Virus record (IMG/VR): IMGVR_UViG_3300027903_000007 | Location: 1 to 57,695 of that record | DNA: 57,695 nt | Direction: 5' to 3' (one strand) | Origin: a virus | Shown: positions 4,099 to 30,929 of the stretch, piece after piece | How the letters are laid out: every line of letters begins with the position of its first letter | Numbering within the stretch: position 1 is the first letter of the stretch | Program-made: the position numbers and the translations under genes | Notes under the pieces: generated by a model | Told to the model about the DNA's origin: nothing | The model's input: the letters and a program-made list of their open reading frames with translations, nothing else | Databases searched by the model: none

Positions 4099-4121
4099 AG
4101 GTAGCACAGAAGTCAATACCA

Positions 4122-17661: not shown

Positions 17662-17671
17662 TTAATCGATT

Positions 17672-17735
17672 CTCCTCAATTTGAAGCATGAGCGCTTCTC
17701 ACTGCCCCTTGTAAGGGGCAGGACAGAAATGCTCT
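17672..17735 (-). repeat. two-hairpin leader element, copy 1
   Basis: Minus strand: stem CTGCCCCTT-ACA-AGGGGCAG, then GTGAGAAGC-GCTCAT-GCTTC, then TTGAGGAGAA and the start codon of the gene at 17371-17661. The spacer and loop positions match the other copies, but the stem sequence differs. Confidence 0.75.
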
Positions 17736-17739
17736 CATA

Positions 17740-18093
17740 TTATATGACAGTCCACAAGCCCCGTTCTTTCAATTTCAGAACTTTCTCGGTTTTCAAGGCT
17801 TGGGTGTAGTACCCAATTCCCCCTTCAGATCCTCCTGCTTGTTTCATCAGGGTTCGGAGTTGGCTTGTGGGAAGATCAGTTCCTTTGGTAAATTGGCGCA
17901 CCAGCTCGGTAAATTTCTCTTTGATGCCACGAGCTCCAGATGCTGGTTTGATGGTGCCTTTATCTACCACTGCATTGATCACGGGGCGTGGCACGTCCAT
18001 CTTGACAACAAGACCGGCTGAAGCCCGGAGTAGCTTGGACAGGTTCTTGCCATCAACAAATACGTTTTGAATTACGAAAAGATCGTCACTCAT
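17740..18093 (-). CDS. hypothetical protein
   Basis: This 117-residue protein is basic, with an N-terminal MSDDLFVIQNVFVDGKNL and a C-terminal LKTEKVLKLKERGLWTVI. There is no known motif; a winged-helix-like C-terminal hairpin is possible. AGGAGAAAAAGGC precedes the ATG. A partial leader element and a plus-strand homing-type gene lie upstream. Confidence 0.65.
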   Translation of the reverse strand: MSDDLFVIQNVFVDGKNLSKLLRASAGLVVKMDVPRPVINAVVDKGTIKPASGARGIKEKFTELVRQFTKGTDLPTSQLRTLMKQAGGSEGGIGYYTQALKTEKVLKLKERGLWTVI

Positions 18094-18098
18094 GCCTT

Positions 18099-18163
18099 TT
18101 TCTCCTATTAATGAAGCATTAGTGCTTCAAGAAGCAAGTAACTTGTGTTACGTGTTTCTTGAA
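18099..18163. promoter_or_regulatory. leader-element half plus inverted repeat before a plus-strand gene
   Basis: The first part is the GAAGC-type hairpin of the leader (GAAGCA...TGCTTC). It runs into an inverted repeat, TTCAAGAAGCA (18126-18136) and TGTTTCTTGAA (18153-18163), which faces the plus-strand homing-type gene at 18181. A very similar repeat precedes the paralogue at 28804. Confidence 0.6.
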
Positions 18164-18180
18164 ATACTAAGGAAGTGAGT

Positions 18181-18627
18181 ATGAGTAGATTGAAATCTAA
18201 AAGATATCTTTTAAGTGATCATAAGGCGCATGCTAAAAGCCGTGACATTGAATTTTTCTTTACTTATGAAGAGTGGCTTGCTTGGTGGGTAGAACAATTG
18301 GGGCCTGAATGGAAAAGCTTGCGTGGCAGGAAACGTGGTCAATATGTGATGGCAAGATTTGGTGACAAAGGACCTTATTTAAAAGACAATGTTAAGTGTA
18401 TTACACATGGGCAAAATGTTAAAGATGCTGCAAATAAAGGTGGTAAGGGAGTTGGACATAAATTGAATGCTCAACAAGTGAAATTGATATTTGCTTCTAA
18501 AGAAACTCAGCGTGTATTAGCTGTGAAATATGGAGTAAGTGAACGGTTAATTCGCCTGATAAAAAATAAACAGGTTTGGTTAACCGTTCTGCAGTCTTTA
18601 CAATCAGATAACATTGGTATTACTTGA
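18181..18627 (+). CDS. homing-type DNA-binding/endonuclease paralogue A
   Basis: About 148 residues from the ATG at 18181 with AAGGAAG upstream. The segments EFFFTYEEWLAWWVEQLGPEW, GQYVMARFGDKGPY and NVKCITHGQN define a phage selfish-gene family related to HNH/AP2-type homing proteins; a C-terminal HTH (VLAVKYGVSERLIRLIKNK) probably reads DNA. It lies on the plus strand in a minus-strand region, inserted within a leader repeat, and its end overlaps the ParB-like gene by 24 bases. Paralogues are at 28804 and 33717. The catalytic activity is not proven. Confidence 0.65.
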   Translation: MSRLKSKRYLLSDHKAHAKSRDIEFFFTYEEWLAWWVEQLGPEWKSLRGRKRGQYVMARFGDKGPYLKDNVKCITHGQNVKDAANKGGKGVGHKLNAQQVKLIFASKETQRVLAVKYGVSERLIRLIKNKQVWLTVLQSLQSDNIGIT

Positions 18628-19449
18628 GGATATTACTTCCAACTTTGGAAGTGGCTCAGGCCTGTCACCTTGGTTTCGCCAATTTAACATTCTGATTTCG
18701 GTGTTGTGATAAGCGGCATTCGCTGCCTTGATCATTAAGGCAATGGTCGTTATCGGATCTTTACGTTTCACCTTATCGGAGCTGAAATACATCCTGAGCC
18801 TAAAGAACGGATCATTGATGGTCACACCAGCTGGATTTTCCAACGTGAATACCATTCGCTCTGCAAGCTCTGGTGATCGGTTGGTCAGAATGTAATAGAA
18901 AAATCCAACCAATGATGGGTTGGCTAATCCACGTAATTGCATCACGCGGCTTACAGCCCGTTCCATGCCGGGGTTGTTTATGTAAGCCATCTCAATGTCT
19001 GAGTTTTCAATACGGTTGATGGGAGCCTGATATTTTTCAAGCGTGCCACGCTGCCATCGCAGCAACCATTGGAGAGCAGCAGAAGTAATGGCCCTGTGCT
19101 TGGTTGCCCCATTGAGGGCTAATACATCAGCGCCATTGCGGGGTTTCCGCAAGGTGTCAATAGTGGCAAACGCTTCTCTTTCTACGCCTTTGACAATGAT
19201 TGTTTCAATGGCGATTTTGGATTCTACAACGGCCCATAAGCGGTGCTGACCGTCTAAAATGTCACCATTAACTGAAAACTTAATGGTGTCTCCGTTGAAA
19301 CGCCATTTGCCTTCGATGATTTGAGCAGCAAGTCGCTTGACGTGCTGATCGTTTAAAGGCCGATTGAGTGTGTTGTGCTCAAGCAGCCTGACTGCTTCTT
19401 CAGGCGTCAGAATTATTCTCTTCAGATCGCCTTGACTTATTCCACTCAT
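18604..19449 (-). CDS. ParB-like domain protein
   Basis: In this 281-residue protein, residues of the type NRPLNDQHVKRLAAQI and GDILDGQHRLWAVVES form the ParB/Srx N-terminal fold, in which DGQHR is the nucleotide-binding (or nuclease) motif. The C-terminal two thirds are helical. Phage proteins of this kind regulate transcription or modify nucleotides. It is the first of three neighbouring ParB/HTH-type genes. Confidence 0.75.
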   Translation of the reverse strand: MSGISQGDLKRIILTPEEAVRLLEHNTLNRPLNDQHVKRLAAQIIEGKWRFNGDTIKFSVNGDILDGQHRLWAVVESKIAIETIIVKGVEREAFATIDTLRKPRNGADVLALNGATKHRAITSAALQWLLRWQRGTLEKYQAPINRIENSDIEMAYINNPGMERAVSRVMQLRGLANPSLVGFFYYILTNRSPELAERMVFTLENPAGVTINDPFFRLRMYFSSDKVKRKDPITTIALMIKAANAAYHNTEIRMLNWRNQGDRPEPLPKLEVISSSNTNVI

Positions 19450-19936
19450 TTGTGAATTCCTCTATCCATTTAGTTGTGTTGTGTAAGTGCATATTGATGA
19501 CTCGTTTACGGCCATTATTGCCCATCACAACTCGGATTAGTTCTTTAGGGTGAGGGAGCTCAGAAAATGTGCGTAGGGCTGGGCCAAACTTGGCCCAAAG
19601 AGCTTTATCAGTTGCAAGGGTTACAAGATGATTTGTACTTAATGTTTTTCCTACGCGTTTTCGTAATTCCTCCTTAATTTCAGGTGATATTTTTTTGCGA
19701 ATTTTGTCGGCTAGAGGCCGTACACCGATTTTGCCACTTCGAACATCCTCTATATCTTGGGAAGTTCCAAACTCAAGGACGGTTCTTGCCTGAGTAACTG
19801 AAGATCGTGAAACCCCAAATTGGGCAGCAGCAGCAGTTGCATGCAGTCCACTTTCTTTGAACGAAAGTTCCGCTGCTTCAAGAGCTTTTTGCGATGCGTT
19901 ATAGTGTGCCAAGTTTCTGCCTCTTGCTTTAAGCAT
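19400..19936 (-). CDS. HTH protein, ParB-associated type
   Basis: In this 178-residue protein, AAAAAQFGVSRSSVTQARTV then VRSGKIGVRPLADKIRKK has the form of the HTH/linker found downstream of ParB nuclease domains. The C-terminus KKRVINMHLHNTTKWIEEF is unassigned. It overlaps the ParB-like gene by 50 bases and touches the next gene, so the three are probably co-translated. It could supply the DNA-binding part for the separate ParB-fold proteins. Confidence 0.65.
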   Translation of the reverse strand: MLKARGRNLAHYNASQKALEAAELSFKESGLHATAAAAQFGVSRSSVTQARTVLEFGTSQDIEDVRSGKIGVRPLADKIRKKISPEIKEELRKRVGKTLSTNHLVTLATDKALWAKFGPALRTFSELPHPKELIRVVMGNNGRKRVINMHLHNTTKWIEEFTNEWNKSRRSEENNSDA

Positions 19937-20313
19937 TAAGTCACCTCGAAGGTTCCGGGGAATTTCATGACTGCCGTGTAGGCAGCATAAAATTCAGCTT
20001 CGATGCGAATGAAAGAAGCTTTTGTTTTATTAATGAAATGCCGATAGGCACGGTGATCTCCATCCAGCACAAAATTGCTTTGTGTAATGAGCAATGGCTT
20101 TGTGAGTATGTGTTCAGGGATACTCATTGCCTTTTGAATATCCACTTCTTGGTGAAGCTTGAGCAGTGTGGGTTCGATGAACCCAGCACTAAAAGTCATT
20201 CCTTGTTCACCTAGAAACACAAATAAGTCAGTATATTGCTTGTCGTTGACTTGTGGCATCTTACTTCGGTTGATCAATGGGTAGACATCCATTGGTACAA
20301 ATTGCAGGCTCAT
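19936..20313 (-). CDS. ParB-fold protein, small
   Basis: In this 125-residue protein, ILTKPLLITQSNFVLDGDHRAYRHF carries the DGDHR version of the ParB/Srx nucleotide-binding motif. The N-terminal half is unassigned. It has the AGGAGGAGAAAA site from a leader copy. It is probably a partner of the HTH protein encoded immediately downstream. Confidence 0.65.
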   Translation of the reverse strand: MSLQFVPMDVYPLINRSKMPQVNDKQYTDLFVFLGEQGMTFSAGFIEPTLLKLHQEVDIQKAMSIPEHILTKPLLITQSNFVLDGDHRAYRHFINKTKASFIRIEAEFYAAYTAVMKFPGTFEVT

Positions 20314-20315
20314 TT

Positions 20316-20374
20316 TCTCCTCCTGTTAGAGCAAGGTTGCTCACCACTGCATGGGCCGCAGGACGTGAACATTG
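20316..20374 (-). repeat. two-hairpin leader element, copy 2
   Basis: Minus strand: CTGCGGCCCATGCAG, then GAGCAA-CC-TTGCTC, then TAACAGGAGGAGAAAA before the start of the gene at 19936-20313. Its second stem is GAGC/GCTC rather than GAAGC/GCTTC, so both strands of the stem have changed together. Confidence 0.7.
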
Positions 20375-20584
20375 CTAGCTTAGGTTTGCTATGTCAGACC
20401 AATTACGATATGTTTCTTGTGCGTTCCAACACGTGTCAAGACACGCCAGAAGTGCCTTAACGTACATATCAATTCTGGCAGGGTCACATTTAACTATTCG
20501 TGCATATTGCAAGTCAGAAGAAGCGTTGTGCAATGCACGTTGAGCTAGCTTAACGGAACGTAATAAATACTCATTACTGTTCAT
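20375..20584 (-). CDS. small helical protein
   Basis: This 69-residue protein is all helical, with Asn, Ala and Cys (LLRSVKLAQRALHNASSDLQ). No family is recognised. It is tightly coupled to the VWA/metallopeptidase gene upstream. Confidence 0.6.
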   Translation of the reverse strand: MNSNEYLLRSVKLAQRALHNASSDLQYARIVKCDPARIDMYVKALLACLDTCWNAQETYRNWSDIANLS

Positions 20585-20586
20585 GT

Positions 20587-21774
20587 TTAACCTCCACTTG
20601 TTGAGACAAGGATAGGATAACCAAATGGTACCTTATCCGCTACTGTATGGAAGTGGTTTTCGTGGGTGAACACCGCCCATAGTGTGGGGATGCCGGGATC
20701 TTCACCAAAATCATTCACTTCAAGGTCGGTGAGATAAATGATGCAGCTGGCATCAGGAATATTCTCACGGATGTACTTGAAAGTGTCACTAAAAGCAGTG
20801 CCACCTCCTCCACCTTTTAAGGGCTCAGGTTTTACAATGTCGCCCATCACGTAATGGAAAACATCATGGGCGCGGGTGTCAGCATAGATGACGGTCAATT
20901 GATCTGCCGTGCCTTGATCCAAGGAACCAGCTACTTCACTGAGCATTTCCTTGAACATTTTGTCATTGATACTGCCAGAATCATCCACGGCAAATACCAA
21001 ATGGCTGAGCCTGTCAGACACAACACCGGGCAATAGGGTGCCTATGGCAGTGCTGCGTCGGCTGATCCGCGCCCAAGAAGGCTCTTTGGACAGGGATTGG
21101 TCAATGAAGTTCCATGTCAAATCTTTCCATGAAACCTTTGGCCTATCTAACTCAGCAATCAGATGTCGTAGGATACCGGGCACGTTGCCAATACCGTTAG
21201 CTTTCATAACGGCTATGGCTGATCGCACGGCTTTATCCCAAACGTGTTTGGTTTGTTCTTCACCCGCTTGACCGTTTGGGGCATCCATTACACTTCCAAT
21301 GTCCCATCCGTCTTTATTTACATAGAACTCGATTTCAATTTTGGGAAACGAATCATAGATTTCTTCAGAGGTCATGCCTCTGTACTTTTCGTTAATGCAG
21401 CATTTAAAGTTTTTGCCACTGATCATGACGTCGTGGATCAAAGTGAAGCCTGAATCTTTCAGATCCAAATTGATCACGTAGTCACAGGCCGCATTCCATG
21501 GCCCGTGCTGCCGTTCTTGGCGTCTTGAGAAGTGTTTTAGGCAGCAGTGCATGACCTCATGGCATATCAGGAACTCACATTGCCTATCATCGAGTTGCTT
21601 GATGAAATCAGGATTGTAGTACAATGACACGCCATCCACTGCGCCAGTAGGTATGCTATAGTCTTCAACCAGCCGTAGTTGCATGGCTAGAAAGCCAAAG
21701 AAACCGTTACTGACTAACAGGTTTGTGCGGCCACGGATGATGTCATCATAAGCTTTGCGGTCTTTGATTTGCAT
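20587..21774 (-). CDS. putative metallopeptidase-VWA protein (DUF2201-like)
   Basis: In this 395-residue protein the N-terminal half has a zinc-binding HEVMH (72-76) in LICHEVMHCCLKH, and the C-terminal third has a VWA-like fold with a MIDAS-type DDSGS and later TDLEVND. This arrangement is that of DUF2201 proteins, usually encoded with a MoxR AAA ATPase, and such a gene is at 22284-23333. The pair may act as a chaperone-like remodelling system; the phage target is unknown. All motif residues appear intact. Confidence 0.8.
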   Translation of the reverse strand: MQIKDRKAYDDIIRGRTNLLVSNGFFGFLAMQLRLVEDYSIPTGAVDGVSLYYNPDFIKQLDDRQCEFLICHEVMHCCLKHFSRRQERQHGPWNAACDYVINLDLKDSGFTLIHDVMISGKNFKCCINEKYRGMTSEEIYDSFPKIEIEFYVNKDGWDIGSVMDAPNGQAGEEQTKHVWDKAVRSAIAVMKANGIGNVPGILRHLIAELDRPKVSWKDLTWNFIDQSLSKEPSWARISRRSTAIGTLLPGVVSDRLSHLVFAVDDSGSINDKMFKEMLSEVAGSLDQGTADQLTVIYADTRAHDVFHYVMGDIVKPEPLKGGGGGTAFSDTFKYIRENIPDASCIIYLTDLEVNDFGEDPGIPTLWAVFTHENHFHTVADKVPFGYPILVSTSGG

Positions 21775-21776
21775 TT

Positions 21777-21905
21777 ATCTCCTCCTGTTTGAAGCATAGT
21801 GCTTCACTAAGAGGCTGGAGTAGAGGTAGGTCAAGAACTTGCTCCAGCCGATCCCCTACGTTGCCAAAAGGCGGACGTCTTACAGGGACATCTCTTAAGG
21901 CAGCA
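21777..21905 (-). repeat. leader element, copy 3 (extended)
   Basis: Minus strand end: GAAGCACTATGCTTC then AAACAGGAGGAGATAA before the start of the gene at 20587-21774. The upstream hairpin is larger here (GGCTGGAG...CTCCAGCC), and the gap is about 130 bases with no coding frame I accept. Confidence 0.55.
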
Positions 21906-22271
21906 CTAGCGTATCTCGAACGATACCCGTTCATCGTCGTTAGGCTTCGTGTAAGCAGCAAATACTGAAGGTTTATCAGTTTTTAGTGCTTCTTGATCAA
22001 GCCGATTAGTGGGGACGATTTGCAGCACGGCTTTGAATTGATGACCCGGTACTTCGCCTGCCGTGTGATTGAGATGATCTTTGATATAGATCTTGATTTC
22101 CTTGTCGAACTTCTCAATGGTTTTGGCAGCAGCTCTGAAGCGGGCTGCTACGTCGATCTTGTCAGCGGTAGTCATCCGCTCCGTGTCTCTCACAATGGTT
22201 TCCATGATGTCTGACAGATAGTCAAGGTCTTCAACTAACTGTTTACGATCATTTTTCGAATATGGTTTCAT
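21906..22271 (-). CDS. hypothetical protein of the MoxR/VWA group
   Basis: In this 121-residue protein, the helical N-terminus (KQLVEDLDYLSDIMETIVRD) is followed by a basic AAKTIEKFDKEIKIYIKDHL and a beta-rich C-terminus. It lies between the VWA and MoxR genes, each preceded by a TCTCCTCCTG-type (AGGAGGAGA) site. No family is recognised. Confidence 0.65.
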   Translation of the reverse strand: MKPYSKNDRKQLVEDLDYLSDIMETIVRDTERMTTADKIDVAARFRAAAKTIEKFDKEIKIYIKDHLNHTAGEVPGHQFKAVLQIVPTNRLDQEALKTDKPSVFAAYTKPNDDERVSFEIR

Positions 22272-22283
22272 GCTCTCCTCCTG

Positions 22284-23333
22284 TTAGATGCGCAAGGTCT
22301 TGTTAGTTCTTGCCCATTTGACAAATGCCTGTGTTTCACACAGGGATTGATCCCGTTTGGTGGCATCCAAGATAACTACGGTGCTGAAATCAGCACCAAA
22401 GTGATCACGGTTTATATATTTCATTATTTGTGCCATGTTAGCAGTGGTCATATTTCTTGCCAGCAACGAGCTCAGGGCAAATCGTGAAGCTGGCTCTTCA
22501 GGAATTAATGTACTCATTGGATCTTTGATGACGTCTTCAAAGTCAGGTAAGTTCAGGGCAGTGAAGAAGGTTTCAACATCTGTTGCGGCTCCTTCACCAA
22601 CGATGCCTGACAACAGTCTGAAGCGCAGCGATCCATCCTTGGTGAATACTTTGGATGCTTGTGTCCAAGACCGTGGCGTTGGGAATGCCAACAAATCAGC
22701 TCCAGCCATTGAGAATAACATTTCAGGTCTCCACTTGATGTACCCCATCAAAAGCGGGTTGACATCGTTTAGATTGGCCCAGCGTAGCCAAGCTTCATAA
22801 TCAGGCCGGATGTGAATGTGTGCAAAACGGTTGGCAAGTGCCGTAGAAATAGACTGTGCAGCTGCACGGTCTTCCCTGCGATTACCTGCTGCCATAGGCC
22901 ACCAGCCGGGTGGCAATTTGAAGTCACCAATTTGGCGATCCAAAATCACACGATAGATACATGATTGTAAGTTACGTGGGGCATCACTAAGTTCATCGAA
23001 TGCAATGATACCACGTTTACCATCACGCTTTTCTTCAGGCCAAAAAGTAGCGCGTAGCCAAACGGCTACACGATTTTCAAGGTCAGGCACAGGAATACCT
23101 GTCAAGTCTTCAGGCAACATGGTGCTGACACGGACATCAATGAAGCCAGTTTTGTCTTCATCTTTGTCTTCATCAGCAAGTTGATGCATGATGGCTGATT
23201 TTCCGAGGCCCGGCGGTGAATGCAGGTAAAGAGGAATATCCTCTTCCCTGAAAATTCGAGCTAGCTCTTTCGCACCTTCAATAGTTTCAGTGCGAACCGC
23301 CGTGACCCCGGTGGTAACTTGGGTTTCAGACAT
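22284..23333 (-). CDS. MoxR-like AAA+ ATPase
   Basis: This 349-residue protein has Walker A PPGLGKS at 40-46, Walker B IIAFDELSDA near 118-127, a following APRNLQSCIYRVILDRQ and sensor AAGNRREDRAAA, as in the MoxR branch. MoxR ATPases work with VWA-domain partners; the metallopeptidase-VWA gene at 20587-21774 is the obvious one. The complex may activate or dismantle a protein assembly during infection (inferred). Confidence 0.85.
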   Translation of the reverse strand: MSETQVTTGVTAVRTETIEGAKELARIFREEDIPLYLHSPPGLGKSAIMHQLADEDKDEDKTGFIDVRVSTMLPEDLTGIPVPDLENRVAVWLRATFWPEEKRDGKRGIIAFDELSDAPRNLQSCIYRVILDRQIGDFKLPPGWWPMAAGNRREDRAAAQSISTALANRFAHIHIRPDYEAWLRWANLNDVNPLLMGYIKWRPEMLFSMAGADLLAFPTPRSWTQASKVFTKDGSLRFRLLSGIVGEGAATDVETFFTALNLPDFEDVIKDPMSTLIPEEPASRFALSSLLARNMTTANMAQIMKYINRDHFGADFSTVVILDATKRDQSLCETQAFVKWARTNKTLRI

Positions 23334-23337
23334 ATTT

Positions 23338-23397
23338 TCTCCTCCTGTGAAGCATGGCGCTTCTCATATGGCAGCACTGCTGCCATAGATAGAAACG
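23338..23397 (-). repeat. two-hairpin leader element, copy 4
   Basis: Minus strand: TATGGCAGCAGTGCTGCCAT, then GAAGCGCCATGCTTC, then ACAGGAGGAGAAAATATG. It fills the whole gap between the gene at 23398-23769 and the MoxR gene. Confidence 0.75.
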
Positions 23398-23769
23398 TCA
23401 GCTGATATCATCATCTTTGGTGGCTTCAGTGCCGTTGCCATCGCCGATGATGGTGGTGAACATATTGCTGTGCACTGTGCGAGCACGAGCTAATGCGTTG
23501 CTGAAGCGATGCCTGTTACCGACAAACATGCTGTGGTTTTCGCCATAAACGATATTTCTGATTATCGGAGGCAAGTTGATCACGTTGTTATCGGCATGCA
23601 GTTCATACATGCCATCAAAGCGAACATATTGGTGACCGCGATCCCTGAGGTACTGAGCAATGGCACATTGCCATGGATCACTTGCGTCGTAAGAGCCAGT
23701 TTTGGTTTCAAGCCAGTTGATCAAGTCTTGAATGTCGTCAACTGTAGCTTCTTTCTCAATATAAGGCAT
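23398..23769 (-). CDS. hypothetical protein
   Basis: In this 123-residue protein an acidic, helical N-terminus (EATVDDIQDLINWLETKTG) is followed by a mixed segment with several His and Arg residues (NRHRFSNALARARTVH). No family is recognised. It is preceded and followed by leader copies, so it belongs to the MoxR/VWA unit. Confidence 0.65.
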   Translation of the reverse strand: MPYIEKEATVDDIQDLINWLETKTGSYDASDPWQCAIAQYLRDRGHQYVRFDGMYELHADNNVINLPPIIRNIVYGENHSMFVGNRHRFSNALARARTVHSNMFTTIIGDGNGTEATKDDDIS

Positions 23770-23772
23770 GAA

Positions 23773-23844
23773 ATTCTCCTCCTGTTTGATGCATCAGTGC
23801 ATCTTTAAACGCATCTTGTGAGATGCGTTCCGTAGCTGCACTAA
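23773..23844 (-). repeat. two-hairpin leader element, copy 5
   Basis: Minus strand: CGCATCT...AGATGCG stem, then GATGCA-CTGA-TGCATC, then AAACAGGAGGAGAATTTC before the start of the gene at 23398-23769. The second stem is GATGC/GCATC, a compensatory change from the usual GAAGC/GCTTC. Confidence 0.75.
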
Positions 23845-24714: not shown

Positions 24715-24717
24715 GTT

Positions 24718-24781
24718 CTCCTCCTGTTTGAAGCTGAATGCTTCTCACTGCGGCTCTTAAGCCGCAGGACAGAAACATTCA
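24718..24781 (-). repeat. two-hairpin leader element, copy 6
   Basis: Minus strand: TGAATGTTTCTGTC, stem CTGCGGCT-TAAG-AGCCGCAG, GTGAGAAGC-ATTCA-GCTTC, then AAACAGGAGGAGAACATG. The first TGA is the stop codon of the 39-codon gene upstream. This copy is almost identical to copy 12 (27357-27420). Confidence 0.8.
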
Positions 24782-24898
24782 CCAACTGGACCAATCCCAG
24801 TAAAGTGCGCGAGCACTTCTAGCTAAAAGTTTGTCAAGCCATTTAAAAGGATTGTATCTTTGGATTTTGGACCAAGGTTCAGGAGGTCGATCACTCAT
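24779..24898 (-). CDS. very small hypothetical protein
   Basis: This 39-residue ORF's ATG lies inside the last codons of the upstream gene (overlap of eight bases), and its TGA is the first codon of a leader element, as for other genes here. It is rich in Trp and basic residues (MSDRPPEPWSKIQRYNPFKW). There is no ribosome site of its own, so it would rely on coupling. Confidence 0.45.
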   Translation of the reverse strand: MSDRPPEPWSKIQRYNPFKWLDKLLARSARALYWDWSSW

Positions 24899-25391
24899 CG
24901 GTTTGATTGATCACACCAGCATTCATTTTGAGATGCTCAGCAGCCATCTTTCGCATGCGGGTAGCTACTGCCAATTCAGCAATGGCTCCTGTGCGTTGAT
25001 AAATAGGATATTTGTCGCTGTTGAAGAGCTCAAATGCTTGCTCTTCAGCAAGATCGAAGAGTTGCATGGCAGCATTCCAATTGTCTACCGTGAACAAAGC
25101 CGTGGTCATCACGGGCACCAGCCTGCCGTCTCTTATTTGGTACGTGAGACCTTCTTTTTTGAAGGCTCCGCTGAGGACAAACAGGCCAAAGGCACAGGCC
25201 TGTGTTCCACAATTTACTGGGATTACAGTATCCTCTTTGTATTGCTTGATTTGGGGTACCTGAGAGAAGGGTTTAGAAAGGTCCACACTCGCATCAGCAG
25301 CCCAGACGTTGAGATTGAATTTGATTCCTTCTGGATTGACTGCATCTGCCTCAAGCAGTTCGGCACCTCTTAACATGAGATCTGTTCTCAT
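24891..25391 (-). CDS. conserved phage hypothetical protein
   Basis: In this 166-residue protein, NVWAADASVDLSKPFSQVPQ and NCGTQACAFGLFVLSGAF suggest a compact alpha/beta fold, with GTQACAFG like a small-molecule or metal-binding loop. No function is recognised. The start has AGGAGGAGAAAA from a leader copy. Confidence 0.7.
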   Translation of the reverse strand: MRTDLMLRGAELLEADAVNPEGIKFNLNVWAADASVDLSKPFSQVPQIKQYKEDTVIPVNCGTQACAFGLFVLSGAFKKEGLTYQIRDGRLVPVMTTALFTVDNWNAAMQLFDLAEEQAFELFNSDKYPIYQRTGAIAELAVATRMRKMAAEHLKMNAGVINQTDE

Positions 25392-25395
25392 AATT

Positions 25396-25459
25396 TTCTC
25401 CTCCTGTTAGAGCAAGATTGCTCACCACAGAAGCCCGTGGGCTTCTGGACGTCAGCAAT
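25396..25459 (-). repeat. two-hairpin leader element, copy 7
   Basis: Minus strand: stem CAGAAGCCC-ACG-GGGCTTCTG, GTGAGCAATCTTGCTC, then TAACAGGAGGAGAAAA and the start of the gene at 24891-25391. The second stem is GAGCAA/TTGCTC. Confidence 0.75.
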
Positions 25460-25560
25460 CATGAATCTGAGTAATAGACCCACACAATGAATGTGTAGCG
25501 GATCCAGATAATGGACCGTAAATAGATGCGTCGTATATGACGACGCAAAGGCCGTTTCAT
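25459..25560 (-). CDS. very small basic hydrophobic protein
   Basis: This 33-residue ORF starts at an ATG with AGGAAACACA directly upstream, beginning MKRPLRRHIRRIYLRSIIWI. It has a basic head and a single possible membrane segment rich in Trp and Tyr. Its TGA touches the leader element. The function is unknown. Confidence 0.5.
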   Translation of the reverse strand: MKRPLRRHIRRIYLRSIIWIRYTFIVWVYYSDS

Positions 25561-25568
25561 TGTGTTTC

Positions 25569-25775
25569 CTACTTGATGTCGTCAATGACGAGGATGAACT
25601 GTTTGGGGTTTGTTATCCCCAATGCCTTCAGGGCAGCTTTGCGCAAGTAGACAGGGCCTATGACTTGACCGTCATTGTCATTTTTCCTTGGCTGCCCCGC
25701 ATCATCAACTTCCTGATAACGCATTGCACCGGGGGTATCATTTTTCCACACAAAGTTCAATTGAATCTTGGCCAT
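25569..25775 (-). CDS. small hypothetical protein
   Basis: In this 68-residue protein, MAKIQLNFVWKNDTPGAMRY at the start and YLRKAALKALG then FILVIDDIK at the end suggest a small alpha/beta single-domain protein of the kind encoded next to phage replication genes. It has an AGGAGGAGAAAA ribosome site. No family is recognised. Confidence 0.65.
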   Translation of the reverse strand: MAKIQLNFVWKNDTPGAMRYQEVDDAGQPRKNDNDGQVIGPVYLRKAALKALGITNPKQFILVIDDIK

Positions 25776-25779
25776 GATT

Positions 25780-25845
25780 TTCTCCTCCTGTTTGAAGCAA
25801 AATGCTTCTCACAGCAGCCCTTAGGCTGCTGGACAGAAACATTCA
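25780..25845 (-). repeat. two-hairpin leader element, copy 8
   Basis: Minus strand: TGAATGTTTCTGTC, stem CAGCAGCC-TAAG-GGCTGCTG, GTGAGAAGCATTTTGCTTC, then AAACAGGAGGAGAAAATC and ATG. The opening TGA is the stop of the gene at 25843-25998. This copy can serve as reference for the family. Confidence 0.8.
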
Positions 25846-25998
25846 GTTGAATGTATTGATGATGCGCTCAAGCGGTGACAATTTAGAATTTTCACCTTCC
25901 TTGAGCCAACGTCGCCAATCCTTGGCAGTTTTGGGTGGTGACAGAGCTTTGATGATTTTGGCTCGCACTTTTTTGCTGAGTTTGTGCTTCTTTGCCAT
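25843..25998 (-). CDS. small basic protein
   Basis: This 51-residue ORF starts MAKKHKLSKKVRAKIIKALS. It overlaps the upstream stop as TAATG and ends in the TGA that opens leader copy 8. Its last residues (TFN) match those of the gene at 26947. It is strongly basic. The function is unknown. Confidence 0.55.
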   Translation of the reverse strand: MAKKHKLSKKVRAKIIKALSPPKTAKDWRRWLKEGENSKLSPLERIINTFN

Positions 25999-26192
25999 TA
26001 CACAGGCTCTTTGATATTGGGAAAGCCGATGATGATATCGGCGTCATCCCAGCCTTTGAACCATTCAGTGGCAGCTATAAGGTCACTGACACCGACTTCG
26101 ATCTTGTTTTGCCCATAGGGGACGGCGGCACGAGGGGCACCAGCTATACGAGCTTGTACACCTTTTAGCCATGGGTCTGTTCTATTGTTCAT
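25998..26192 (-). CDS. small hypothetical protein
   Basis: About 64 residues from the ATG at 26192 (MNNRTDPWLKGVQARIAGAP), 8-10 bases after AGGAGGAG. It contains DLIAATEWFKGWDDADIIIG. The longer frame to 26237 would run through the leader element and is rejected. No family is recognised. Confidence 0.6.
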   Translation of the reverse strand: MNNRTDPWLKGVQARIAGAPRAAVPYGQNKIEVGVSDLIAATEWFKGWDDADIIIGFPNIKEPV

Positions 26193-26195
26193 GTT

Positions 26196-26261
26196 TCTCC
26201 TCCTGTTTGAAGCATGAGCGCTTCTCACAGCCCCCATAAAGGGGCTGGACAGAAATGCTCA
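26196..26261 (-). repeat. two-hairpin leader element, copy 9
   Basis: Minus strand: TGAGCATTTCTGTC, stem CAGCCCC...GGGGCTG, GTGAGAAGCGCTCATGCTTC, then AAACAGGAGGAGAAACATG. The opening TGA is the stop of the upstream membrane gene. Confidence 0.8.
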
Positions 26262-26456
26262 GAAGTCTTCGTAGTTTCGATGTTTGTTCTCACCCTTTAC
26301 AGGCTCATCAGGACTCAGCATGCATCCGACATGCCAGCCGATGTATCCTGCAATGACAGTTGCGATGATTGTGAGTACAGGATCGATTTGGCAAGCTGCA
26401 AATGTTGCAAATACAGCAATGCCAGTAGCACTTCCGACTTTGGTTTCAAGTTTCAT
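26259..26456 (-). CDS. small membrane protein
   Basis: This is a 65-residue protein from the ATG at 26456. MKLETKVGSATGIAVFATFA and VLTIIATVIAGYIGWHVG give two membrane spans, and the tail is charged. The longer frame upstream is a shadow crossing a leader copy. AGGAGGAG precedes the ATG by four bases. The function is unknown. Confidence 0.6.
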   Translation of the reverse strand: MKLETKVGSATGIAVFATFAACQIDPVLTIIATVIAGYIGWHVGCMLSPDEPVKGENKHRNYEDF

Positions 26457-26460
26457 AACA

Positions 26461-26526
26461 ACTCCTCCTGTTTGAAGCATAATGCTTCTCACTACCCCCC
26501 TTAGGGGGCAGGACAGAAGCATTTCA
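26461..26526 (-). repeat. two-hairpin leader element, copy 10
   Basis: Minus strand: TGAAATGCTTCTGTC, stem CTGCCCCC...GGGGGTAG with one G-T pair, GTGAGAAGCATTATGCTTC, then AAACAGGAGGAGTTG before the ATG. Confidence 0.75.
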
Positions 26527-26712
26527 CACCGTAGGATCAAGTGCGAACAGCAGGTTGGTGAGAAATGTCGCATGCATTTCATAATCAGGATGATAACAAT
26601 GCACAGTCCAGATCCCAATTGCCGAACAGATCAAAATAGTGCGGTAGTAGTGCCGCTTGACTTTGATTCTATGGATCGGGCAATGAATTTTGGATATTTT
26701 GAAGCCTCTCAT
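26524..26712 (-). CDS. small protein with one membrane segment
   Basis: About 62 residues from the ATG at 26712, with GGAGAAG upstream that is itself the end of the preceding gene. The N-terminus is basic (MRGFKISKIHCPIHRIKVKR), followed by a hydrophobic ILICSAIGIWTVHCY. The stop opens leader copy 10. The function is unknown. Confidence 0.5.
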   Translation of the reverse strand: MRGFKISKIHCPIHRIKVKRHYYRTILICSAIGIWTVHCYHPDYEMHATFLTNLLFALDPTV

Positions 26713-26716
26713 TGGC

Positions 26717-26881
26717 TTACTTCTCCAACTGAGCAGTGACGGCTTTATCTGCCGCAGCTGCATAGATTTTCTCCCGGATGTTTTTGGTGAGGTTCAATTC
26801 AAAGTCGATATCGACAATTGAAATCAAGCCAACCAGAACCACCGCGAAAACTACTTTCAGTTGTTTGAGTGGGTCATCCAT
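26717..26881 (-). CDS. small membrane-anchored protein
   Basis: This is a 54-residue ORF starting MDDPLKQLKVVFAVVLVGLI with one N-terminal membrane span and a soluble helical tail (NIREKIYAAAADKAV). AGGAGGAGAAAC directly precedes the ATG. It ends four bases before the next start. The function is unknown. Confidence 0.6.
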   Translation of the reverse strand: MDDPLKQLKVVFAVVLVGLISIVDIDFELNLTKNIREKIYAAAADKAVTAQLEK

Positions 26882-26883
26882 GT

Positions 26884-26949
26884 TTCTCCTCCTGATTGAA
26901 GCAAAATGCTTCTCACTGCCACCCTTAGGTGGCAGGACAGAAACATTCA
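26884..26949 (-). repeat. two-hairpin leader element, copy 11
   Basis: Minus strand: TGAATGTTTCTGTC, stem CTGCCACC-TAAG-GGTGGCAG, GTGAGAAGCATTTTGCTTC, AATCAGGAGGAGAAAC and ATG. The stem differs from copy 8 on both strands while the loop TAAG is kept. Confidence 0.8.
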
Positions 26950-27144
26950 GTTGAATGTGGAGGCATTTTCACTTGGGGCTAGAAGCTCAGCAATCCACCA
27001 ATCTTTGTAGAGAGTGTTTTTATTTCTTAATTGGTAGTTTACAGCCTCTTGTTCCGCTTCAAATGGGCCAATGTAGCGAAAGCCATAGACTGGGCTTCCG
27101 CTAATAATGAAGTATTTCATTGGAGGTCTTCTAGAGTTGGCCAT
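26947..27144 (-). CDS. small hypothetical protein
   Basis: In this 65-residue protein (an internal ATG at 27120 is an alternative start), MKYFIISGSPVYGFRYIGPF looks like a small beta-strand domain, followed by EAEQEAVNYQLRN. The frame overlaps the end of the preceding gene by 14 bases. No family is recognised. Confidence 0.55.
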   Translation of the reverse strand: MANSRRPPMKYFIISGSPVYGFRYIGPFEAEQEAVNYQLRNKNTLYKDWWIAELLAPSENASTFN

Positions 27145-27244
27145 GAGTGTAAGCGGCTGTTAGCACCAGCGCAAACAACAGGATGAATCCCAGCATTATA
27201 AGACCATTAGTTGGCAGGCCTTCATCTTCAGGTTCGTATTGCAT
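27131..27244 (-). CDS. very small membrane protein
   Basis: This 37-residue ORF from the ATG at 27244 follows GGAGG that lies in the stop region of the preceding gene. It has an acidic head (MQYEPEDEGLPTNG) and one membrane span (LIMLGFILLFALVLTAAY). A longer frame to 27418 is a shadow. Confidence 0.55.
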   Translation of the reverse strand: MQYEPEDEGLPTNGLIMLGFILLFALVLTAAYTHGQL

Positions 27245-27246
27245 GA

Positions 27247-27348
27247 TTAACCTCCACAGTTGCGCAGTAGATGCGCGTAAGGCACGAAGAAAGTGACACC
27301 CAATGCGAAAGCTATGATCAATGCAACAGCTGTGAACTTTGCTAACAT
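27247..27348 (-). CDS. very small membrane or exported protein
   Basis: This 33-residue ORF reads MLAKFTAVALIIAFALGVTF followed by a short polar tail. The sequence is a signal-anchor. AGGAGGAGAA from a leader copy precedes the ATG. The function is unknown. Confidence 0.55.
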   Translation of the reverse strand: MLAKFTAVALIIAFALGVTFFVPYAHLLRNCGG

Positions 27349-27356
27349 TTCCACGT

Positions 27357-27420
27357 TCTCCTCCTGATTGAAGCTGAATGCTTCTCACTGCGGCTCTTAA
27401 GCCGCAGGACAGAAACATCA
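27357..27420 (-). repeat. two-hairpin leader element, copy 12
   Basis: Minus strand: TGATGTTTCTGTC, stem CTGCGGCT-TAAG-AGCCGCAG, GTGAGAAGC-ATTCA-GCTTC, AATCAGGAGGAGAACG. It is nearly the same sequence as copy 6, which points to recent duplication or conversion. Confidence 0.8.
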
Positions 27421-27693
27421 GGTATCATCGATATCAAAGTGATCGACTGTTTCAGCAGCCAAATCTTCCTTGCGGTCACCAACAAGAAGCCAGCCATTGC
27501 CGTCATCACTGGGGTCATAAAGAACGTATGCTCCCGGTATCACCGCAACACGGGCTTTGAGGTTTGAAAGAACTTTGGCTTCGTCGACGCCTGAGTTCAT
27601 ATCTTCAGGCGTTAATGCATTGAAACAATCACGCGAGACCAACCGATAGCCTAACGCTTTAACCATGGTCTCATTTGCTTGATCATCTGTCAT
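27418..27693 (-). CDS. small hypothetical protein
   Basis: About 91 residues from the ATG at 27693, overlapping the upstream stop as TAATG. It contains LVSRDCFNALTPEDM and VIPGAYVLYDPSDDGNGWLL; the second part looks like a beta-hairpin. No family is recognised. The stop opens leader copy 12. Confidence 0.6.
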   Translation of the reverse strand: MTDDQANETMVKALGYRLVSRDCFNALTPEDMNSGVDEAKVLSNLKARVAVIPGAYVLYDPSDDGNGWLLVGDRKEDLAAETVDHFDIDDT

Positions 27694-27887
27694 TAGGCTG
27701 CGTACCAGAGCCACGGTTCAATTCTGGCAATTTGCTCTTGTCGATGAATGAGGTACAGCTGCTGAATGGCTTGAAAGGAAGGCCAGTAGCGTACTCTTTT
27801 ATAACGTTCATGTTTGCTCCAACCCAAAGACACAGGTGGCGGAATGTCTGGGTTGACATCATGGCTAAGCTTATGAGATCCACTCAT
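27693..27887 (-). CDS. small hypothetical protein
   Basis: In this 64-residue protein, SLGWSKHERYKRVRYWPSFQ gives a basic aromatic centre and the end is RIEPWLWYAA. It is coupled to both neighbours by overlaps. A second frame at 27683-27883 is a shadow. Confidence 0.55.
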   Translation of the reverse strand: MSGSHKLSHDVNPDIPPPVSLGWSKHERYKRVRYWPSFQAIQQLYLIHRQEQIARIEPWLWYAA

Positions 27888-28075
27888 CTAACCCTCCGCT
27901 TGAGTGAAGGAATTTCCGTGAAGGAAATCTCGTTCTTGATCAAGCCAATGGCTTCATCAAAAGCGTTGATCCACGGTTCGTGGTTGGGGATATCTTTACC
28001 ACGGTTGATCTTTGCCATGGTAAGTCGCACATCGTCTAATATCCCCAATGCGCATGCTATTGCTATCTTACTCAT
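27884..28075 (-). CDS. small helical protein
   Basis: About 63 residues from the ATG at 28075 (MSKIAIACALGILDDVRLTM), with AGGAGGAGAAAA upstream. It is helical with a basic end (SLKRRVR). Its stop overlaps the next ATG. No family is recognised. Confidence 0.6.
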   Translation of the reverse strand: MSKIAIACALGILDDVRLTMAKINRGKDIPNHEPWINAFDEAIGLIKNEISFTEIPSLKRRVR

Positions 28076-28078
28076 GAT

Positions 28079-28143
28079 TTTCTCCTCCTGTTGAAGCATA
28101 ATGCTTCTCACAGCAGCCCTTAGGCTGCTGGACAGAAACATTA
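28079..28143 (-). repeat. two-hairpin leader element, copy 13
   Basis: Minus strand: TAATGTTTCTGTC, stem CAGCAGCC-TAAG-GGCTGCTG, GTGAGAAGCATTATGCTTC, AACAGGAGGAGAAAATC and ATG. Confidence 0.8.
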
Positions 28144-28296
28144 GTCATAGGATGACGGGATGATAGGTAACTTCATGCGGTCATTCCATATAGTGCTGCG
28201 TTGTGACTTGGCCATCTCCATTTCAAACCGCTCTTCAGCAGCTGCCATTTCAATGACTATCCCTGTCACCAAAATGATCACGGTGATGCGGATCAT
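28141..28296 (-). CDS. very small membrane-anchored protein
   Basis: This 51-residue ORF has an ATG that overlaps the DoxX-like stop as ATGA and a TAA that opens leader copy 13. One N-terminal hydrophobic segment (MIRITVIILVTGIVI) is followed by a charged helix (AAAEERFEMEMAKSQ). The function is unknown. Confidence 0.55.
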   Translation of the reverse strand: MIRITVIILVTGIVIEMAAAEERFEMEMAKSQRSTIWNDRMKLPIIPSSYD

Positions 28297-28718
28297 TTGA
28301 AGATCAAGCCATCTAAGCCGTATGGCCCACCGCCTGATAATACCAACTCAATCAGGATGAGGGCGTACAGAACCTCAGGGAGGTACAGCACGTCATCCAG
28401 ATAGTCAGCCTTGTCAAGTGGCTTCCAGCCACCAATGCGTTTCAGGCCATCGGTGAATGTTGCACCACAACAGATGATGAACAATCCGAAGGCTGCTACG
28501 GGTGTGAAGAGCCCCCATAGTAACGCAATACCTCCCAAGAATTCAGCTATTGGTACAAACCAACTGTTGAATTTGGGTTCGGGGATATGATCATCCATCA
28601 TGGTTTGAGCCACAGTGGCATGACGCACTGGATTAAATAGCTTGTGATAGCCCGATATACTGAAAAATACCCCCATGCCTATTCGCAGTATTGTGATGCC
28701 GATTAAAGGTAGCTCCAT
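28293..28718 (-). CDS. DoxX-like integral membrane protein
   Basis: About 141 residues from the ATG at 28718. Four membrane spans are visible (for example ITILRIGMGVFFSISGYHKL, then FVPIAEFLGGIALLWGLF and VAAFGLFIICCGATF), with the R-x(n)-GxxK and PxAExxGG-type layout of the DoxX family. DoxX proteins are bacterial quinone- or thiol-related membrane proteins; one in a phage is unusual. It may alter host membrane physiology; this is inference. Confidence 0.7.
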   Translation of the reverse strand: MELPLIGITILRIGMGVFFSISGYHKLFNPVRHATVAQTMMDDHIPEPKFNSWFVPIAEFLGGIALLWGLFTPVAAFGLFIICCGATFTDGLKRIGGWKPLDKADYLDDVLYLPEVLYALILIELVLSGGGPYGLDGLIFK

Positions 28719-28721
28719 TTT

Positions 28722-28784
28722 TCTCTCCTCCTGTTGAAGCAAAATGCTTCAAGAAACATATTTGTTTGTGGTATGCTTCTTGAA
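28722..28784. promoter_or_regulatory. split leader element (copy 14) with inverted repeat
   Basis: The minus strand carries GAAGCATTTTGCTTC then AACAGGAGGAGAGAAA before the DoxX-like gene. Beyond the hairpin comes TTCAAGAAACA (28748-28758) with TTCTTGAA (28777-28784), facing the plus-strand gene at 28804. The other half of the leader (a CTACGGAGAGGG hairpin and GAAACATTCA) is on the far side of that gene at 29050-29093, so the gene splits the element. Confidence 0.65.
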
Positions 28785-28803
28785 ACATTAGTGAGAATTT
28801 AAA

Positions 28804-29103
28804 ATGGTTCAAACTCCGAAACGAGCTTTTCAATATCATCGCAATAACGCGAGAAGACGGAAAATTGAATTTAACTTTACATTTGAAGAATGGGTTAAAT
28901 GGTGGGAGACTAATTTAGGGCTTGATTGGTATTTAAAACGTGGATGCAAATCAGGGCAGTACGTAATGGCTAGGAAGCGAGATAGAGGTGCTTATGAAGT
29001 AGAGAATGTTAAATGTATTCTTTGTAATTTAAATAATCTTGAAAGTATGTACGGAGAGGGTAGGAATCACCCTCTCCGTAGGAGAAACATTCAGTCGCCG
29101 TGA
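28804..29103 (+). CDS. homing-type DNA-binding/endonuclease paralogue B
   Basis: In this 99-residue protein, EFNFTFEEWVKWWETNLGLDW, GQYVMARKRDRGAY and NVKCILCNLNN align with the paralogues at 18181 and 33717. It is short: the C-terminal HTH of paralogue A is missing, so it may be truncated. It is on the plus strand against the local direction and overlaps the end of the minus gene at 29091-29258. Confidence 0.6.
   Translation: MVQTPKRAFQYHRNNARRRKIEFNFTFEEWVKWWETNLGLDWYLKRGCKSGQYVMARKRDRGAYEVENVKCILCNLNNLESMYGEGRNHPLRRRNIQSP
29050..29093 (-). repeat. second half of split leader element
   Basis: Minus strand: TGAATGTTTCTCC, then TACGGAGAGGG-TGATTCCTA-CCCTCTCCGTA. The opening TGA is the stop of the gene at 29091-29258, as for other leader copies. 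The hairpin also forms the 3' end of the plus-strand gene. Confidence 0.6.
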
Positions 29104-29258
29104 TGGCCTCTCAACCCCATACGCTCTTCCATGAGGTCAGCCACGTAATTGGTGACGTTTACCAAGTCTCTCATCTTGATGGCCACATAGAGCGAGGCAA
29201 GCGACACAATGAGCGTTGTGGCTGTGGCCAAGGCCAGCAGGATCATATCGACTACCAT
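29091..29258 (-). CDS. small membrane-anchored protein
   Basis: This 55-residue ORF has one N-terminal membrane span (MVVDMILLALATATTLIVSL) followed by a helical tail with an acidic part (VADLMEERMGLRGHH). It starts six bases after the stop of the gene at 29264. The function is unknown. Confidence 0.6.
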   Translation of the reverse strand: MVVDMILLALATATTLIVSLASLYVAIKMRDLVNVTNYVADLMEERMGLRGHHGD

Positions 29259-29263
29259 GATGG

Positions 29264-29740
29264 TCAGTCTATTGCGTCGATGACGCCGACCGCGTCATTA
29301 GCTTCGAAAACTGATTCTTCAGCATCAAGCCCTTCCATGAAGCCTGCTGCTGCTGTGCCCTTCTGGCCGTTATCGTTCAGCGTGTATTCACCATTGTCGA
29401 CAAAGTAGGTGAACATGGTTGTCTGAATGACTTCGTTGACAGCTTCTCGCCATTCACCATCTTTGATGATGTTGACCCCTACGCCGACCGAGTCACGACC
29501 ATCAGCAGCCACTGTAGCAACAACGTTTTTGCCGATGTTGATGTCTTGGAAATTGACTGTGACAGTGCAGTCACCCCAAGCTGGGCCATGCCGGAGGGCA
29601 ATGGCATTGCCGAGGTTGCTAACGCGCCAGTCGTCGCCAATGCTGAGTTCGTCCAGACCTACTGTAAATTCATCACTACTCCATGTCAGGGTTGGTGTGG
29701 ACAGGGTCTTTTCGGGATCGCCTACTTTATAGAATATCAT
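29264..29740 (-). CDS. hypothetical protein, beta-rich
   Basis: About 158 residues from the ATG at 29740 (MIFYKVGDPEKTLSTPTLTW), with AGGAGGAGATATT upstream. It is acidic and predominantly beta, with DDWRVSNLGNAIALRHG. No family is recognised. The longer frame crosses a leader element and is rejected. Confidence 0.65.
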   Translation of the reverse strand: MIFYKVGDPEKTLSTPTLTWSSDEFTVGLDELSIGDDWRVSNLGNAIALRHGPAWGDCTVTVNFQDINIGKNVVATVAADGRDSVGVGVNIIKDGEWREAVNEVIQTTMFTYFVDNGEYTLNDNGQKGTAAAGFMEGLDAEESVFEANDAVGVIDAID

Positions 29741-29744
29741 AATA

Positions 29745-29812
29745 TCTCCTCCTGTTGAAGCAGGATTGCTTCTCACAGCATCCCATAGGATGCTGGACAG
29801 AAACATTCATCA
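29745..29812 (-). repeat. two-hairpin leader element, copy 15
   Basis: Minus strand: TGAATGTTTCTGTC, stem CAGCATCC-TATG-GGATGCTG, GTGAGAAGCAATCCTGCTTC, AACAGGAGGAGATATT and ATG. It is another co-varied first stem. Confidence 0.8.
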
Positions 29813-30016
29813 TTTAACTCGTAACTTCCATGGTCTTCGGGGTACTTCCGCAGGAGTGAGCCTGCGCTTTCGCTCCAGTTCAGTTTCTTGAGCTACAGCG
29901 GTTGCTATGGCAGCTCGGCATTGGTCACAGCTGACTCTCTTCTTCAGATGATACTTGTACTTGAACCATGTACCGCAATGCCTGCAATATTTACTACGGG
30001 TCGAGCCTCTAAGCAT
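29810..30016 (-). CDS. small zinc-ribbon protein
   Basis: In this 68-residue protein, YCRHCGTWFKYKYHLKKRVS followed by CDQC gives a four-cysteine zinc ribbon, and the rest is a basic helix. It is probably nucleic-acid binding. It begins two bases after the stop of the metallopeptidase-like gene. Confidence 0.65.
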   Translation of the reverse strand: MLRGSTRSKYCRHCGTWFKYKYHLKKRVSCDQCRAAIATAVAQETELERKRRLTPAEVPRRPWKLRVK

Positions 30017-30018
30017 TC

Positions 30019-30519
30019 TTACCTCTCTTCAAACGCAAAGCGTGAAACGTCAAGGACATACCCAACTTCGTGACGCTCAAGAGCATCAATAGAATGTTTG
30101 TGCAGTTTTGGTTGAAGTTCAAAGGCTTCCCTTTCCCATGGAAGATCTTTGTAAGCCACGTCAGAAGTACAAATGAATTTTGGGAAATACTGACCGCACC
30201 AGTTGCACCCTCCTTCTTGCTCTTGCACATCTGAAAGATCACCGCGCAAGTATTGAGCGATGTGAGTTGTTTCATGGCCAAGCACTGAGATGCCTTCAAA
30301 CAGATTGAATCCGTTTGCATTGAGTACGACCATGAAGTAGTCGGATGTTAAGCATCCCATTGACCCTAGATGATTTTTGGGGCCAATGTTTGCGCGACGT
30401 ACAGCTACGGTGCAATCACGTTCTGTGATGCCAAGATGCTTACAGTTCGACTTGAATGTTTTTGTTAGGATGGTTTTTTCCTTTTGAGTGAAACCATCAT
30501 CAAAAAGAATGGTTGGCAT
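30019..30519 (-). CDS. putative zinc metallopeptidase-like protein
   Basis: About 166 residues from the ATG at 30519 with AGGAGGAGAAAA upstream. LFEGISVLGHETTHIAQYLRG carries the zinc-metallopeptidase motif HExxH with helix context, and a later GCNWCGQYF pair may bind zinc. It is likely a small SprT/eCIS1901-like or minigluzincin-type peptidase. The substrate is unknown. The N-terminal part (ILFDDGFTQKEKTIL) is not assigned. Confidence 0.65.
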   Translation of the reverse strand: MPTILFDDGFTQKEKTILTKTFKSNCKHLGITERDCTVAVRRANIGPKNHLGSMGCLTSDYFMVVLNANGFNLFEGISVLGHETTHIAQYLRGDLSDVQEQEGGCNWCGQYFPKFICTSDVAYKDLPWEREAFELQPKLHKHSIDALERHEVGYVLDVSRFAFEER

Positions 30520-30522
30520 GAT

Positions 30523-30585
30523 TTTCTCCTCCTGTTTGATAATCATGATGATCATCGGAGGTGACAGCAACAAAGACATTCAGCT
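30523..30585 (-). repeat. leader element, copy 16 (divergent)
   Basis: The minus strand ends in AAACAGGAGGAGAAAATC before the ATG at 30519, preceded by GATGATCATCATGATTATC in place of the usual GAAGC hairpin. It is the last copy at the upstream end of this unit. Confidence 0.5.
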
Positions 30586-30929
30586 GCACTCATTTGGGGG
30601 AATGAGTCGGGGTATTTGCAGCTTTGTTCCCTATCGCTTCAGGGGGCTTGGTGGAAAAGCGATAGTTGCCTGAGCACTGTCACCACCGATAATCAAAGGT
30701 GATGAAAGGAGCTGGCCCGTAGGCCAACCCCCTTCACCTTTGTAAACAGAAGGAGGAGATATTTCACCAATGCCCATTTATGCGCAAAGCAAACTTTACC
30801 GGCAGCTGCATTAGGTTTGGGCAAACAGATAACAAGTTGATTGGTTTGCCGTTGCGTTTGAGGGGTATTAATAACTCAGGGGTAGTTTCAGAATAGAGTG
30901 TAGTGATGCTGTGTAATTGCATTCATGCT

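Follow-up and report, generated by a model that had tools for sequence, protein, structure and literature searches.

Between 17.7 and 29.8 kb on the minus strand of the viral record IMGVR_UViG_3300027903_000007, all of which was analysed (57,695 bases, 45% G+C; henceforth called the window), gene junctions carry repeated copies of an RNA module of ~60 nucleotides (nt), which in this soil-phage lineage lies ahead of almost every small gene block. The module is built in the order X - hairpin 1 (h1) - X' - X'' - ACAGGAGGAG - ATG. X is the flank right after the upstream stop codon (e.g., AATGTTTCT), its partner X' (AGAAGCATT) doubles as the 5' arm of hairpin 2 (X':X''), and X'' directly precedes the Shine–Dalgarno sequence (SD). 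X:X' and X':X'' are mutually exclusive, i.e., one strand has two alternative partners. With roughly even confidence, we read the module as a putative intercistronic RNA-processing site that would act like the RNase III signals of phage T7 and would add a strand hand-off to them. In the nascent transcript, X would pair with X' and make X-h1-X' a single hairpin of about two helical turns, and a double-strand-specific endonuclease, most likely host RNase III, would cut its 3' side close to or within the internal loop, at a point separating h1 from X'. Cleavage would leave the upstream mRNA with the stable h1 as its 3' cap, and X', freed from X, would refold with X'' into a 5'-terminal hairpin just ahead of the unmasked ACAGGAGGAG and the start codon. 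In this way, a long transcript would yield units that span about one to three genes each and are protected at both ends. The occurrence and position of the cleavage, the enzyme, and the protective effect are what we infer in this model.

Candidate copies were collected from eight related viral contigs (n = 95), i.e., the window record and seven further module-bearing contigs found via a pattern scan and protein searches (G001, 93 kb; G002, 65 kb; G003, 35 kb; G004, 21 kb; G006, 29 kb; G008, 93.5 kb; G020, 28 kb). The 95 copies were selected on the two hairpins only, and a curated set of 83 copies was filtered on X:X' energy. For a cross-copy test with 20,000 permutations, X was paired with its own X' and with the X' of other copies. 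Own X:X' duplexes of the 95 copies averaged −8.9 kcal/mol compared to −5.4 kcal/mol for swapped ones (standard deviation of swapped 0.22), and none of the 20,000 permutations reached the own value; the same held for the 39 copies without GAAGC (−8.2 vs. −4.8; 0 of 20,000). The second test was performed on the 83 copies with fixed sequence intervals and without using any fold of the arms. Own pairings were again reached by 0 of 20,000 permutations in each comparison, both for X':X'' (−8.0 vs. −5.7; minority families −8.0 vs. −4.8) and for X:X' (−7.9 vs. −5.4; minority families −6.8 vs. −4.3). For 86% of copies, the joined state (X:X') was computed to be lower in energy than the state with two hairpins, the mean difference being 2.4 kcal/mol.

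Covariation was scored on a gapless 27-copy alignment (A1) under the structure X:X' plus h1. Paired cells amounted to 96.8%, compared to 75.5% in shuffles and at most 60% with a slid partner; double changes were present in 13 of 17 pairs, and the covariation score was 0.612 vs. 0.202 in shuffles and at most 0.140 for slid structures. Unaided, RNAalifold recovered a nearly identical structure. A covariance model built from A1 found copies in the lineage contigs, on the coding strand of small-gene clusters, whereas neither the genome of T7 (L091) nor the relatives lacking the module (G013, G021, and G005) yielded a match; it misses the most diverged families (G020 wholly, G001 all but one), and its counts are therefore a lower bound. 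Conservation of all three helices as RNA structure is strongly supported, and A1 bears out the proposal of the first-pass annotation that the structure is conserved through paired changes. Across the module-bearing contigs, ACAGGAGGAG is invariant as the SD context, the hairpins can differ wholly in sequence, and distant contigs carry X/X' pairs such as GATTTCATC/GATGCAATC and GATACA/TGTATC. One recent duplication with identical stems does not account for the copies, as other contigs carry wholly different stems in the same architecture.

The window had been described in the first-pass annotation as holding about 16 copies of a two-hairpin leader on the minus strand between 17.7 and 30.6 kb. 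Direct reading of the window yielded 16 copies (13 canonical copies and three structural variants) and, as a 17th element, a differing leader ahead of the first gene of the cluster, all on the minus strand; the copies end at 30.6 kb, and no further ones were found elsewhere in the window. The stems named in that annotation are present and both hairpins are real, but a third helix had been missed: the 5' arm of hairpin 2 has a competing partner beside the upstream stop codon, and TGAATGTTTCTGTC, previously taken for mere constant flank, is one strand of this helix and pairs with that arm. The h1 loop, which had been called constant and TAAG-type, is often UNNG-like (TAAG, TACG, TATG, CACG) but variable. 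No T-run follows hairpin 2, as had been stated; CAAACAGGAGGAG stands there in the sequence, which does not fit an intrinsic terminator.

The canonical copies, all on the minus strand, are located at 29746-29808 (SD at 29753; 65.0 bits with the covariance model), 28082-28142 (SD 28089; 69.2 bits), 27358-27419 (SD 27365), 26886-26947 (SD 26893), 26462-26523 (SD 26469), 26197-26260 (SD 26204), 25782-25843 (SD 25789), 25398-25459 (SD 25405), 24718-24779 (SD 24725), 23776-23844 (SD 23783), 23339-23399 (SD 23346), 20317-20376 (SD 20324), and 17671-17734 (SD 17678). Both the covariance model and the X/X' pairing test supported those with the SD at 29753, 28089, 27365, 26893, 26469, 26204, 25789, 25405, 24725, 23346, and 17678. 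Examples of the changing partners are GAGCATTTCT/AGAAGCGCTC (X/X'; SD 26204), ATTGCTGAC/GTGAGCAAT with TGCTC as X'' (SD 25405), TTAGTGCA/GATGCACTGA with TGCATC as X'' (SD 23783), and GTTCAC/GTGAGC (SD 20324). The structural variants are likewise on the minus strand. At 28725-28792 (SD 28732), X:X' is a continuous helix of 18 base pairs (bp) and there is no separate h1; at 18100-18170 (SD 18107), a 15-bp X:X' with one mismatch is followed by a short upper stem of 5 bp; and at 21779-21908 (SD 21786), a larger structured RNA stands between X (TAGTGCT, 21902-21908, with the stop codon inside) and X' (AGCACTA, 21797-21803), followed by X'' and the SD.

X-h1-X' folds as one hairpin in 83 of the 83 curated copies; this hairpin contains 15–22 bp, and its 5' arm measures 21.6 ± 1.5 nt. 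A 3/2 asymmetric internal loop lies mid-stem in 57 of these copies. Its sequence is variable (GTC/TG 40 times; also ACG/AA, ACA/CA, ACC/TC, and others), and in the most frequent class the loop is followed after 0–1 nt by the 5' arm of h2. Hairpin 2 ends 2–7 nt ahead of ACAGGAGGAG in most copies. The variants at 28732 and 18107, which have lost or shortened h1, keep about the same total length, and both adjoin opposite-strand genes. The stop codon abuts or falls inside X in 84% of the 74 copies with a clear upstream open reading frame (median distance −2.5 nt). Junctions that carry a module measure 61–75 nt and end in an 8-nt SD, whereas at most other junctions the genes overlap or nearly touch, and the SD is weak or absent; most modules therefore delimit units that comprise about one to three genes. 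Gene calls at these junctions were automatic and imperfect, and one junction (22284/22271) is an exception, with a full SD 12 nt past the preceding gene and no module.

These features were compared with those of phage T7, whose early mRNA is cut by RNase III, a host enzyme, into mono- and dicistronic mRNAs (PMC4858673). RNase III substrates comprise at least two helical turns (PMC2956633), and the substrate R1.1 of T7 contains an asymmetric internal loop (PMC6121014). The module likewise has about two helical turns and an asymmetric internal loop, and the junction map and the stop-to-X distance place it between cistrons of a polycistronic phage transcript. The T7 signals (R0.3, R0.5, R1, R1.1, R1.3, and others), whose positions we take to be those of Dunn and Studier 1983 (sequence from NC_001604), share with it the intercistronic place, the many sites per genome that split an operon into mono- and dicistronic mRNAs, and the order of a stop codon upstream, a lower stem, an asymmetric internal loop, a strong upper stem, and an SD and ATG downstream. 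T7 signals are cut on the 3' side of the internal loop, and the arrangement of strong upper stem and internal loop is alike in the module. In contrast, no sequence relationship exists, the lower stem of the module is longer and covaries, and X' has a second dedicated partner, X'', which would give a 5'-terminal hairpin, whereas the downstream products of T7 lack a regular 5' hairpin. Among the roles that had been suggested in the first-pass annotation, RNA processing with mRNA stabilisation fits the anatomy best when the third helix is taken into account. If so, a second phage lineage, unrelated to T7 in sequence, would mature its operon via two-turn hairpins, and the added hand-off would cap the new 5' end; its many natural variants could then be used to test the rules of RNase III cleavage and to insulate genes from each other when operons are built synthetically. 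The model makes concrete, testable predictions on mRNA ends in uncultivated phages.

Several points weigh against processing by RNase III. Most copies have 17–19 true pairs, which is near the lower limit for the Escherichia coli enzyme, and longer double-stranded RNA is needed by some RNase III enzymes (PMC6121014). The 3/2 loop is smaller than the 4/5 loop of T7, and the T7 sites have no X'' hand-off, i.e., such a site can work without one. Pairing of X would be disrupted by a ribosome standing on the stop codon, and cutting would therefore be needed ahead of or between ribosomes. A phage-encoded RNase III was sought in these genomes and not found. Relatives of the portal protein were sought in bacterial genomes for host identification, again with none found.

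The closeness of the stop codon to X is also the starting point of the main rival, a ribosome-operated bistable switch for translational coupling, which we consider rather unlikely. Here, the terminating ribosome would cover X, X' would turn to X'', and downstream translation would change. Genes are known to be coupled by upstream ribosomes that unfold RNA (PMC12548453), and blocking X in silico raised the probability of hairpin 2 from 0.18 to 0.80 and the mean SD accessibility from 0.51 to 0.63. In the minority families, however, the gain at the SD was almost nil (0.59 to 0.62), and X'' pairs with the SD more weakly than shuffled X'' does (−2.0 vs. −2.7; minority families −0.8 vs. −1.6), so that translational control, a role which had also been suggested, is unsupported as far as SD masking is concerned. 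Furthermore, the copies adjoining opposite-strand genes keep X:X' without a co-directional stop codon nearby, genes that would need coupling already overlap, and closeness of stop codon and X is also expected from a compact genome. An influence of the ribosome on the choice of fold is likely as physics; nothing points to selection of this effect for unmasking the SD. Processing and a ribosome-driven switch can coexist, as cutting would be delayed while ribosomes translate as far as the stop codon. A further, fairly unlikely possibility is a general self-resetting RNA switch present about 10–20 times per genome, in which either the terminating ribosome or the cut itself would transfer X' from X to X'', and each unit would be matured or activated only after its upstream neighbour had been transcribed and translated. 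Few natural RNA elements offer up to about 20 independent covarying copies per genome in which two exclusive helices draw on one common strand.

Known RNAs in which one strand has two exclusive partners are the ermC-type attenuators and the trp-type leaders, where a ribosome could choose between them. Exclusive pairing is common to ermC-type attenuators and the module, but in the former strand 3 masks the SD in the off state, which the weak X'':SD pairing of the module does not reproduce; the module has no fourth strand for such masking. An erm-like masking of the SD in the joined state, suggested by folds of the GAAGC family, was rejected, given that this pairing is weaker than with shuffled X'' and nearly lost in other families. 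Two further candidates were discarded. X often holds an ATG, sometimes in frame with the next gene, as a leader peptide would require, but X also reads AGCAT, AATAC, or ATAGT, and changes in h1 alter the would-be peptide freely; translational bypassing, brought up by X and X'' being near direct repeats, does not agree with the varying SD-to-start spacing and the strong SD that follows.

The pairing of h1 in 100% of the A1 cells could also point to end protection or insulation only. Stem-loops at mRNA ends guard against decay (PMC7509114), and h1 and h2 could be passive 3' and 5' stabilisers, with another nuclease (RNase E or a phage enzyme) cutting the GTGA linker and X:X' as a minor aid. This is improbable in our view, since it leaves unexplained the compensatory changes of X:X' across families, the near-constant total hairpin length, and the two copies that lose or shorten h1 yet keep X:X'; the linker sequence also varies among families (TG, CA, AA, TC, AG). 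Stable tetraloop hairpins between phage genes exist in T4 (the intercistronic CUUCGG hairpins), and the module is similarly rich in UNNG-type loops; in almost every copy, however, there is also another hairpin and a third strand that competes for pairing.

Co-transcriptional folding would occur in the right order for a nascent-RNA element acting on RNA polymerase by pausing or put-like antitermination, which would be read during the emergence of X-h1-X' and reset by X''; polarity could be suppressed if a long operon held many such copies. We regard this as very unlikely: there is no T-run or terminator partner, the copies lie at boundaries of translation units and not ahead of terminators, and no Rfam family matches. 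The put antiterminator RNAs of phage HK022 consist of two stem-loops in the phage leader RNA; they differ from the module in their few copies per genome, the lack of strand exchange, and their positions. The hairpin promoter of the N4 virion RNA polymerase has a fixed sequence, while the stems of the module vary freely. Profile searches of these genomes with PF00940 (T7-type/virion RNA polymerase) gave no match, and neither did the control search.

Near-identical copies within one genome, including the h1 stem CTGCGGCT/AGCCGCAG common to the copies at 27365 and 24725, would be in line with a recombination cassette at the DNA level by which genomes exchange small genes; recombination hotspots had been listed as a possible role in the first-pass annotation. 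Homologous recombination requires identity and not compensatory changes, and families differ fully with pairing kept, so that this explanation is scarcely credible, although gene shuffling may be a by-product of the modules.

Among the sequences searched, no lineage other than this one yielded the module. Viral contigs outside the lineage that were scanned for AAACAGGAGGAGAAAATG had lone SD matches without the module. Among isolate phages, megablast of the region found no match, and the module as query returned short weak matches only (E-values from 0.6). Searching Rfam 15 yielded a tRNA as the sole match in the whole window, with the modules nowhere near the gathering score; the module belongs to no known family. 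No published description was found in the literature searched, which excluded most subscription journals. The portal protein of the window is only distantly related to those of isolate phages, at about 24–36% identity (e.g., Myxococcus phage Mx8 and Bradyrhizobium phage ppBjS10J-1), but relatives occur on 48 viral contigs.

The leader of the first gene (30526-30590, minus strand; SD 30533, at 30.5 kb) has a different layout, CACCTCC - hairpin - ACAGGAGGAG, and its fold is predicted to pair CCTCC with the SD, unlike the other leaders. This layout recurs in L082 (near 5880, plus) and L078 (near 2881, minus). The larger structured RNA inside the module ahead of the VWA/DUF2201 gene (21797-21908, minus) is apparently a three-way junction and was also seen in L075 (about 400-560, minus), L082 (about 13650-13790, plus), and L016 (about 4090-4230, plus). 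One of its hairpins has a covarying stem and retains TTTGACCYACCTCT in the loop (in the window, TTCTTGACC); the RNA has no Rfam match and is possibly a regulatory RNA of its own.

In the window, the terminase and portal genes are on the plus strand, and the helicase and primase genes are on the minus strand. Amid the minus-strand genes, three genes without a Pfam match are on the plus strand (18175-18627, 28804-29103, and 33867-34166); the first two adjoin the modules with a (nearly) continuous X:X', as if genes had been inserted at modules. A MoxR-type ATPase and a DUF2201/VWA pair (20587-23333, minus) are related to those of N4-like phages, whereas the portal belongs to another lineage. The small genes include unusual phage cargo, namely a DoxX-family membrane protein (28293-28718, minus) and a TauD-like dioxygenase (32448-33359, minus). 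On the strand opposite to the small genes, a conserved AACAGGAGGAGAATCC.AAAAACCC with a GC-rich fold and no start codon after it was observed in the window (15382, plus) and at L083:303 (minus), L081:11945 (plus), L074:13978 (plus), and L084:2481 (plus).

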